Of a stretch of 30,499 nt of DNA, positions 3,256 to 29,908 are shown piece by piece (the first letter of the stretch is position 1; each line of letters opens with the position of its first letter). The notes beneath the pieces are model-generated. The model saw nothing but the letters and a program-made list of their open reading frames with translations. It had not been told where the DNA came from and made no database searches. A program made the position numbers and the translations under genes. Origin of the DNA: a virus; the IMG/VR virus record IMGVR_UViG_3300031351_000010, positions 1 to 30,499 of that record; one strand, 5' to 3'.

Positions 3256-6200
3256 TTAGTAGCCGGCGCTGCTAAACAACGTCCAGGGTCCCGCTGCGTA
3301 CCGCTTCCAAAGCCATATATTGTCATCAATGTTATTGAGCACGATATCCCCTGACGGCAGGTTAATGTTGCCGGTTCCGTCCTTGATCGTAATCGTGTGG
3401 CCGCTCTGATTTTGCAGGCAGACCAGTATGCGTACGCCGTCGGATGGATTTATTGTGGTCAAATTATCCGAACTGCCGGTTTCAGACGCCAGAAACATGA
3501 CCGGAGCCGAGACTGTAATCGCGCCTGATGCGATGGCGACGCTTGCGGCGTCAAGAGCAAGCTGTCCAGCAAATTGATCTACATAGAGATTGTCGTAAAT
3601 GTGCGTTTCGGGCCCGATGTAAACGCCAAAGATATCGCTGCTGACAGAAAATTGGTTATCCGAGACTTCGAACATCGTAGAGCCGTCATGCTGAATTTCG
3701 AATCCCCATGTGGCGGCATCTCCCGATGTCAAATACATTATGGTAGTTTGATCGTTTGCCGCGTTATTTGTATGTAAAGTAATTCGTCCGTTTACGCCCG
3801 TTTCCATCCCGGTCCTAAGAACGAAATCGGAGTAAGTAAGCAGAGATTCGTAGCTCTGGTACATCTCACCCATTTTGCCGCCGTTATAGCGGAGAAACTT
3901 GATTTTGTTCGTTTCTGAAATCTCTTCCTCCACGGCATCAATAGTGATCCCGTCTTCGTCTAGAATAACGTTGCCGCCGCCCGCGTACAGCTTGCCGTCC
4001 GTGCTGCGCGCATACCACTGCACGTCAGTGCCGTCTGTGCCGTACAGATCGAGCCCATCCCACGCCACGGTCGCTCCGGCTGCGCCCCCAAAGTAAAAGT
4101 TCCCCGCGTTGTCCGTGTAGGTCTTCCACGCCGAGCCGGAAAAATAGCCCATTTTGTCAGCGCCGAGGTACAGGCCCTCTCCCTCAGGCGTACCCACATT
4201 GGAGCCGGGCAGCACTTTTCTAACTGCGTCGCCGCTGGCGTTCAATCCGGCAGATATGCGCCCGTCAGTGAGTTCGTCGGGCCTGTTGGTCACCTCCGCC
4301 GACCATGACACATTGTCCTTGGTTACCAGTCCGCCAGCGTCCCCGAACGATACAATCCCGGAGCCGCCGGTCACGATGATACTGCCTTTGACCTCCAGTT
4401 CCGATGCGGAATTGTCCCACTTGACATAGGCATTGTGCGCCGCCGAGCCGATCAGCAGGTCCCCGGTGTCCAGCGTAGCGCCGCCCCACGACTCGCCGCC
4501 CTCCAATCCGCCGTAGACGCCGAGCGTTGTCTTGCCCGCGGCGTCGCGCATCCACAGACCCTTGTCATCCGCCCACACCAATTGCAGCGGCGTGGCCCGC
4601 CAGGACATCCTGGCCGTCTCCGCAAATACCGGGGCGTCGCTCTCATAGACGGCCCGGATCTCGTCCGCATCCATCCTTTTCCCCACGATGGCAAGACAGT
4701 CGATGAGGCCGTTCCAGTAATGGTTCTGCCCAGAGCCTGAACCCACGTACAATGTTTGCGGCTCGACAACGCCAGAGAGTGTGTCGCTGTTGAGCAGCTC
4801 GCCGTCAAAATAGATCGCCGCTTCGCTCGCCGCATTGCTCCAGGCCACAGCAATATGATGCCAGTCCAAATCCCATGCGGGCGTGCTGGATACGATTGAT
4901 CCATCGCCAATAGACAGCCAAAGTTCGTTGCTGCTGGCTTTGCGCCACAGGCGCAGATTCGTAGCTCCGGCAACAAACAAATATGAATCGTCGTCAACGG
5001 CCGTCGGCGTGTTGCCCCAGGGCGCTTGCACCCAGGCCATGATTGTGCCCTGCACTCGCGGCAAAACATAAGACGGATAGCCGACCAATGGCGGATAGCG
5101 AAAACTGATGCTGCCGTGCTCTGTCCCGTCCCAAGTGTGGCTGGCTGCCGTGTGCACGTAGCTGTTCAGGGACCCGTCCAGATATGGTGTGCAAAACGCC
5201 CGTTTCTCCGCCTGGACTGCATCGATGTAAAACACCTTGCCCGCTGCGCTTGGCTGACTGGCGGCAATCACAATGCGGCCAGGTCCCTCGCCCGCCGGCA
5301 GCATCCCCGCCGCAGTCAGCAGTTGCCACTCACCGACTTCTGTGGCCTGCATACTGTCGATTAGGGTCATGTCGTCCTGATACAGCGACAACTGCGGCAT
5401 TCCGCCGTCCCAGCCCAGCGGCACATAGACCATGCACTGCACGGCCCAGTTTTGGCCGTCGCTCGCATCTGCAAAAATGTGCCGCGCGCTGGCGAACGTG
5501 CCTGACACATAACTAATTTGCAGTGAATAGAGTCCCGACCACGCAACGGTGTCGGATCGGCTCAGCGTGTCCCCGTGCAGCGAGGCCCAGCCGCTCGTGT
5601 TAGTTTCAAATGACGGGTTCGTAACCTGATTGTAGGTATTCCGGCCCATGCTCAGGGCGCGGCCAAACTTGCCGGGCGGGAAAACAATGCCGCCCGCCTT
5701 TGATGTTGCGCCGACGCCCATGTGCGTCTCAAGTTGACCCACCCACAGCCCCTCGTTATTCCACGGGCCGTCGTACTGCATGATCGCCTTGGCATTGTCC
5801 AACTGGATGGCGTGCGGACCGACTAGGTACGTACCGCGTATAGGCCCGTCCACATCCAGCGCAAACTGCGGGTCGGCGACGCAGTTAATCCCGACATTGG
5901 CAGTGGACGGGTCGCCCGTGTTGTTGACGTACAACGCCGGTGTTGCACCCGGCCCCACGGTAAGGTCGCCGTTGTTAATAACGTCAATATCGCCCTCGAC
6001 CGTCAGATTCTGCAGCGTGATCCCGCCGCTCCCGGTCGAAGATAAAATCTTGGCCGCCGCGCCCGGATTGCTGCTGTGGTCGATGGCGTGATAGTGGATA
6101 TTGCCGTCCCGCGTGCTCACGCTGTTCACATCCAGATCGCCCGGATCACCCATGAGCAGCCCATTGTCAATTTCCAACCCGGAATCCTCGGCCAATACTA

Positions 6201-29263: not shown

Positions 29264-29313
29264 TTCGGACACCAAACTATGTCCAACTGGCTAGTGACTT
29301 TGCGGCTACGTTG

Positions 29314-29322
29314 TGCTACAAT
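29314..29322 (+). promoter_or_regulatory. Extended -10 promoter for the right plus-strand genes
   Basis: TGCTACAAT is an extended -10 element (TG-n-TACAAT). The -35 region is weak (TGACTT, 16 nt upstream), as is common for extended -10 promoters. Transcription would start near 29330, giving a leader of about 155 nt before the 29484 gene that includes the first structured repeat and a small hairpin GCCTC-ACA-GAGGC at 29371-29383. Confidence 0.5.
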
Positions 29323-29413
29323 ATAGACAGTAAGAGACAAGGAAATAGCCACACCGGCACGAGGTGAACGGCCTCACAGAGGCGAACCGGGGAGGACCCG
29401 CAAAGAGGAAAAC

Positions 29414-29472
29414 GGAAGTCACGCAGCCTGGTAGCTGCGGTAGGCGATGAGGTACCACGAAACTTCCAGGAG
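29414..29472 (+). ncRNA. Structured 5' leader element, copy 1
   Basis: A 59-nt element ending in the AGGAG ribosome binding site of the 29484 gene. It contains GGAAGT (29414-29419) complementary to ACTTCC (29462-29467), enclosing a 6-bp hairpin CGCAGC-CTGGTA-GCTGCG (29422-29439). It shares about 53 of 59 bases with copy 2. The hairpin resembles the D-arm of tRNA (CGCAGCCTGGTAGC), but no anticodon or T-arm is present, so it is called a cis leader and not a tRNA. Confidence 0.6.
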
Positions 29473-29483
29473 GAGATAGAGAA

Positions 29484-29804
29484 ATGAAGATCACAGTAAA
29501 ATCCATAGAAGAAGGACCATTCGATGACGTGCGATTTTATCTTGAGGCCAATGTCAATGGCAGACTGGTTCAGTCACGAGGAACCGTACTGACGATGCCT
29601 GGACTTACGGAGCTCAGCACCCGCCCGGAATGTCGCCAACAGATCCGACGAGACGTCGAATATGCGCAGATGGTGATTGACAATATGCTCGCCGAGGGAA
29701 TGGATGTGAAAGAGGCTGGTGCCGCTCTTGAGCGCATCATCCTCGAGGAGATTCCGCAGCGTGAAGCAGAGCGAAAAGAACTAGAAAACCTGTTCGAGGA
29801 CTAA
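29484..29804 (+). CDS. Small accessory protein preceded by leader element 1
   Basis: A 106-residue acidic protein, MKITVKSIEEGPFDDVRFYL, with a beta N-terminus and a helical C-terminus (KEAGAALERIILEEIPQRE). AGGAGG is 10 nt before the ATG. No recognised domain, signal or metal motif. It is the first gene after the extended -10 promoter and is divergent from the late operon, so it may be expressed early. The small size and charged helical end fit an inhibitor or DNA-mimic style protein only as speculation. Confidence 0.72.
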   Translation: MKITVKSIEEGPFDDVRFYLEANVNGRLVQSRGTVLTMPGLTELSTRPECRQQIRRDVEYAQMVIDNMLAEGMDVKEAGAALERIILEEIPQREAERKELENLFED

Positions 29805-29849
29805 CCTGAACAAGTCGCTACCGCCTGCCGGCGGGCGTTATCACCGGCT

Positions 29850-29908
29850 GGAAGTTACGCAGCCTGGTAGCTGCGGTAGTCGATAAGGAATCCCGAAACT
29901 TCCAGGAG
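29850..29908 (+). ncRNA. Structured 5' leader element, copy 2
   Basis: The second copy ends in the AGGAG of the 29915 gene. The outer stem is GGAAGTT with AACTTCC (7 bp, 29850-29856 with 29897-29903), the hairpin is CGCAGC-CTGGTA-GCTGCG (29858-29875), and the tail CGAAACTTCCAGGAG is conserved. Its outer stem is one pair longer than in copy 1. A short GC hairpin (CCGCC-TGCC-GGCGG, 29821-29834) precedes it and may end the first transcript or add structure. Confidence 0.6.

Follow-up and report, generated by a model that had tools for sequence, protein, structure and literature searches.

A duplicated, fold-capable 59-nt element of a tailed phage is probably a copied leader for translation start rather than a tRNA mimic

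Introduction

The PeSL cassettes of T4-like phages, reportedly described by Comeau and colleagues in 2014, are said to be reiterated stem-loops between small genes in which a promoter and a terminator-like stem-loop are combined. Start-Associated Sequences (SAS) and Extended SAS (ESAS) are repeats present in mycobacteriophages of cluster K and Microbacterium phages of cluster EF (PMC3203893, PMC7302621). The SAS is 13 bp long, occurs in 11-19 copies per cluster K genome and in that cluster contains AGGAG, while the cluster K ESAS adds upstream inverted repeats whose imperfect arms give little support for RNA pairing (PMC3203893, PMC7302621). Cluster EG Microbacterium phages have 18-bp inverted repeats before start codons, which have been described as similar to the 17-bp cluster O repeats (PMC7302621) and which in our reading are probably DNA sites. 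The put RNA of phage HK022 acts on RNA polymerase and has two copies in two operons; coupling to a Shine-Dalgarno (SD) sequence is not described for it (PMC9378689).

Many of the small early genes of phages have no known function, and how they are switched on jointly is little understood. A leader moving as a cassette that includes a ribosome-binding site would offer a simple means of bringing a further gene under a control circuit already in place. We describe here a candidate for such a leader, found as a duplicated element in a DNA stretch of 30,499 bases (the window), which is the whole of IMG/VR record IMGVR_UViG_3300031351_000010.

Results

The phage record

The record comes from a tailed phage, as identified from its terminase, portal and capsid genes. 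Its structural genes are encoded on the minus strand, and at both ends there are small genes on the plus strand. The closest relative by TerL is a 41-kb record, and a TerL at 63% identity is located on a contig binned in a Chloroflexota MAG. Because the left end begins within repeats inside an open frame and the right end is only 591 bp past the second leader copy, the record is probably a fragment, and further leader copies may be missing beyond the right end. The repeats at the left end are of the GCGGCT type, run in tandem through positions 1-230, and likely mark an assembly break. A TerS-like gene adjoins the leader region, its start lying approximately 240 bp away on the opposite strand.

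A 59-nt element ending at the SD sequences of two adjacent genes

Two copies of a 59-nt element (Table 1) lie 436 nt apart and are identical at 53 of 59 positions. The window has no better direct repeat, those by the left end and around 10447 ranking next, and the record holds no third copy of the element. The similarity begins at the first base of GGAAGT and stops at the last base of the SD sequence AGGAG, 11 nt and 6 nt before the ATG codons of the two genes, and the flanks of the two copies do not align. Nor do the 106-aa and 113-aa products of these genes, which are unrelated on comparison. The first-pass annotation, made from the sequence alone, had the repeat, its position and the dissimilarity of the proteins right. 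The 18-nt hairpin within the element occurs twice in the window, as compared to a mean of 0.06 occurrences in shuffled sequence (allowing up to 3 mismatches), and no shuffle contained two.

Table 1. Coordinates of the leader region in the window and of repeated leaders in two other phage records.
Feature	Position	Strand	Details
Promoter-like site, GTGACT-17-TACAAT, TG before -10	29294..29322	+	presumed early operon promoter
Upstream part of gene 1 leader, outside the repeat	29348..29413	+	several small hairpins (fold)
Leader copy 1, 59 nt	29414..29472	+	outer stem 29414-29419 / 29462-29467; hairpin 29422-29439; SD AGGAG 29468-29472
Small early gene 1, 106 aa	29484..29804	+
GC-rich hairpin CCGCC-TGCC-GGCGG between gene 1 and copy 2	29821..29834	+	no T run (sequence)
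Leader copy 2, 59 nt	29850..29908	+	outer stem 29850-29856 / 29897-29903; hairpin 29858-29875; SD AGGAG 29904-29908
Small early gene 2, 113 aa	29915..30256	+	uncharacterised phage protein family P0002
Third gene, 77 aa	30261..30494	+	weakly zinc-ribbon-like, below Pfam cut-offs
Leader copies of the nearest TerL relative (G001, locus L091)	4958-5031 and 5308-5381		hairpin-capable GGGCA/TGCCC in both
Promoter-hairpin-SD cassettes of MT835524 (L134)	27517, 26593, 25375	-

Four promoter-like sites were found in the region, where 0.8 are expected in shuffles, and the site listed in Table 1 is the only plus-strand candidate there. Before copy 2 no promoter was found, and the interval between the genes gave no terminator on the leader strand. 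A promoter upstream together with none found for copy 2 suggests that both copies are carried in one transcript. The segment 29348-29413 upstream of copy 1 can form three small hairpins, and 29331-29413 folds better than shuffles (z -2.48).

Homologue searches gave no match for gene 1, and its structure model was set aside as too weak to use. Gene 2 has relatives in several phages, and the family, which has no Pfam or NCBIfam match, shows W, KG, R-Y and YKTGN as conserved motifs. The predicted fold of the gene 2 product is confident (pLDDT 94.5), and a fold search gave no PDB match and returned only uncharacterised viral proteins. In the loci of gene 2 relatives that we examined, including by covariance model, none of these genes is preceded by the 59-nt leader. 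The third gene starts 4 nt past gene 2 and has no leader copy before it.

Comparison with described systems

Like the SAS and ESAS, which within a single phage genome recur at the ribosome-binding sites of several non-structural-region genes that are unrelated to one another, the 59-nt element overlaps the ribosome-binding sites of two unrelated phage genes. It differs from them in being one 59-nt unit, seen in two copies, with perfect nested arms and no sequence relation; there is no 13-bp GGGATAGGAGCCC-type consensus in many copies, and the tail of the element, CGAAACTTCCAGGAG, is present only twice. With PeSL cassettes it shares reiterated stem-loops between small phage genes; it differs in that the repeat holds neither a promoter nor a T run and ends at the SD, the promoter-like site being outside the repeat with none found before copy 2. 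Since it lacks both the SAS consensus and the PeSL promoter content, we do not class it as a member of either family. The cluster EG repeats differ in being 8-10 short copies that do not include an SD, and the likeness to HK022 put is that of two related structured RNAs, about 60-70 nt long, in early phage transcripts. The kind of element is already known from SAS/ESAS and PeSL, which in our best reading are its closest counterparts and which it would resemble in action if the interpretation given below is right; what sets this case apart is the length, the perfect nested complementarity and the position exactly up to the SD.

Folding of the element

An all-helix scan found that GGAAGT/ACTTCC and CGCAGC/GCTGCG, one nested in the other, are the only helices of at least 6 bp common to both copies, in agreement with the outer stem and hairpin first proposed. 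Among dinucleotide shuffles, 0.015% contain two perfect 6-bp helices that are compatible with each other (P about 1.5e-4), while the folding energies of the copies are only mildly below those of shuffles (z -1.1 to -2.0). The hairpin, which had been called invariant, is so in sequence and less so in fold: its ensemble probability is only about 0.25-0.38 in copy 1, which alone favours a competing inner fold, versus approximately 1 in copy 2. In the fold of copy 2 the outer stem is extended by 29848-29849 / 29904-29905 to a helix of 9 bp (CTGGAAGTT/AACTTCCAG), with 1 nt between it and the 6-bp hairpin, rather than the acceptor-like 7 bp followed by 2 nt that had been described.

All six differences between the copies are outside the 24 paired positions (P = 0.036), so the pair offers no covariation in either direction. 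The paired positions are indeed identical, and conservation of RNA, as it had been put, is too strong a term for two copies in one record, in which covariation does not distinguish recent duplication from selection. The SD is unpaired in the isolated elements of both copies; when copy 2 is folded with more of its surroundings, the first two SD bases are paired. Both copies could also form an alternative 5-bp helix between CCUGG of the hairpin and CCAGG at the SD, which excludes part of the outer stem; this pairing is kept as speculation only.

Resemblance to tRNA

By the established structure of tRNA, AGCCTGGTA forms the D-loop, which is flanked by two arms of four bases. The element contains a 14-mer, CGCAGCCTGGTAGC, that matches D-arm sequence, for example of tRNA-Pro, and to this extent the reported D-arm identity stands. 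In the element, AGC of AGCCTGGTA and the GCT that follows it sit in the 6-bp stem. Because the hairpin pairs bases that are D-loop positions in tRNA, the resemblance is one of sequence without topology. ARAGORN found no tRNA, and neither ARAGORN nor Rfam gave a cloverleaf of D, anticodon and T arms, the anticodon and T arms being absent. No Rfam family (Rfam 15) scored above threshold, which gives the suggested riboswitch no support, and a permissive Rfam scan gave two chance-level matches only (E 3.8 and 9.8). The idea of a tRNA mimic is thus largely refuted. We also considered a leader peptide, as copy 1 reads ATG AGG TAC CAC ... TAG, and rejected it because copy 2 has no ATG there.

Searches for homologues

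We looked for the element in 2.9 million viral contigs, 50,697 phage records, 72,556 plasmids, a sample of Chloroflexota genomes and TerL relatives, and none of them yielded a homologue, although close relatives could exist unseen. Exact 22-mer and 18-mer searches, blastn against phages and plasmids, a DNA query of 396 genomes of the class, and a covariance model built from the element and run on 37 TerL-related records and the P0002-homologue loci all gave none. Several candidates were rejected. Eight 16-mer matches, most of them within open frames, had no match to the rest of the element, and the hairpin was present in none of 19 matches to a gapped loop-plus-tail pattern. The covariance model gave three matches at E < 0.01 in 400 Chloroflexota genomes, about the number expected by chance, and these appear to be within or antisense to genes. 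Weak matches at two further loci (L084 and L085) appear to be coding sequence.

Similar arrangements in other phages

We compared fetched records, each with itself, for repeats ending at start codons, and three cases were informative. In one such comparison, of 24 records, convincing start-associated repeats were found in 3, the window included. The arrangement, though not the sequence of the window, does recur in other phages, with unrelated sequences. The nearest TerL relative, IMGVR_UViG_3300037502_002453, has a duplicated 74-nt leader (78% identity) before two adjacent genes of 93 and 112 aa that are apparently unrelated; that this leader is a homologue of the 59-nt element was ruled out (P 0.68).

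The fecal phage MT835524 has three promoter-hairpin-SD cassettes before three genes, one of them a homologue of gene 2, and between copies the cassette stems show a G-U/G-C change. The same genome has a separate 163-nt repeat, whose plus-strand copies at 37975-38137 and 39604-39766 are 97% identical and precede two further genes.

In another relative, IMGVR_UViG_3300002446_000076 (G028; loci L162/L163), two-hairpin leaders precede several genes, with starts at 2501, 3597 and 34441 and others. The second stem reads GCCGA/TCGGC, GCCGG/CCGGC, GCTGG/CCAGC and ACTGA/TCAGT, both sides changing while pairing is kept. The changes between copies appear compensatory. These stems were matched by eye in four leaders, and MAFFT does not place them cleanly, so the pattern is no more than suggestive. 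A second leader family in this record, at starts 1985, 4450 and 6703, has the SD inside a small hairpin, GCACC-AAAGGA-GGTGC.

Discussion

Among the cis-acting RNAs that had been suggested for this locus, a structured leader tied to the start codon is the best supported, by a repeat that ends at the SD, unrelated downstream proteins, pairing above chance and recurrence of the arrangement elsewhere. We give slightly better than even chances to the full form of this reading, in which a reiterated, structured, start-associated leader has been copied before two unrelated early genes and acts on translation start or mRNA stability. Both copies would be 5' UTR cassettes transcribed in an early operon from just after 29322. 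The outer stem would close a compact fold, consisting of the hairpin and a variable linker, that ends exactly at the SD, most of which would stay unpaired and open to the ribosome. Duplication would have given two unrelated adjacent early genes one initiation signal, allowing joint expression or control, and if the RNA folds in this way in the cell it would probably influence how translation starts and how stable the mRNA is. A shared RNA-binding protein may recognise the hairpin, or the fold may simply provide a stable, accessible initiation site. Standing against such a leader are the lack of a homologue, the alternative inner fold of copy 1, the mild energies and the partial pairing of the copy 2 SD in the extended fold.

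One rival is a recent neutral duplication of a good ribosome-binding region. A captured gene would have come in together with a copy of the leader, and any pairing would be incidental or merely tolerated. A recent duplication could account for the identity of the copies without any function, and what we see is a single duplication at 90% identity, with no homologues and with no clear adoption of the same fold by copy 1. We regard this explanation as unlikely, as the borders of the repeat fit the stem and the SD, the pairing exceeds chance, and other phages have duplicated leaders of a similar kind with unrelated sequence.

Perfect inverted repeats suit DNA as much as RNA. The dyads CGCAGC-N6-GCTGCG and GGAAGT...ACTTCC could be bound by a phage protein as an operator or as a small-terminase packaging site, given the TerS-like gene next door, and the authors of the SAS paper favoured DNA binding for the ESAS repeats. 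This is rather less probable still, since each copy sits in what is presumably a 5' UTR and stops at the SD, no promoter is near copy 2, and the duplicated leaders of the nearest TerL relative are far from its terminase gene.

An elongation signal like put, in which the nascent RNA folds, binds to RNA polymerase and counteracts termination, and two copies re-arm the polymerase along an operon, would match in size and number (put is about 70 nt, with two related copies in early transcripts), and a GC-rich hairpin does precede copy 2. It is nonetheless very improbable, because the put copies are in two different early operons whereas those of the window are apparently in one, with both ending at the SD and no terminator found between the genes on the leader strand. 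A tRNA-like mimic or riboswitch, for all the resemblance of the 14-mer to a D-arm, has practically no chance of being correct given the paired D-loop positions, the 9-bp outer stem of copy 2, the missing T and anticodon arms and the lack of any tRNA or Rfam match.

Taking the copied leader further, reiterated, fast-evolving, folded RNA leaders that present the SD might be widespread among phages as a means of placing unrelated small early genes under one translational regulator, with the 59-nt element as one lineage-specific RNA family and the CCUGG/CCAGG pairing as an off state under a putative RNA-binding protein. We consider this extension improbable as it stands. The idea of a travelling leader cassette can be tested by self-comparison of phage genomes without homologues, since the same arrangement is present with unrelated sequences in several phages and, in one case, with apparently compensatory stem changes.
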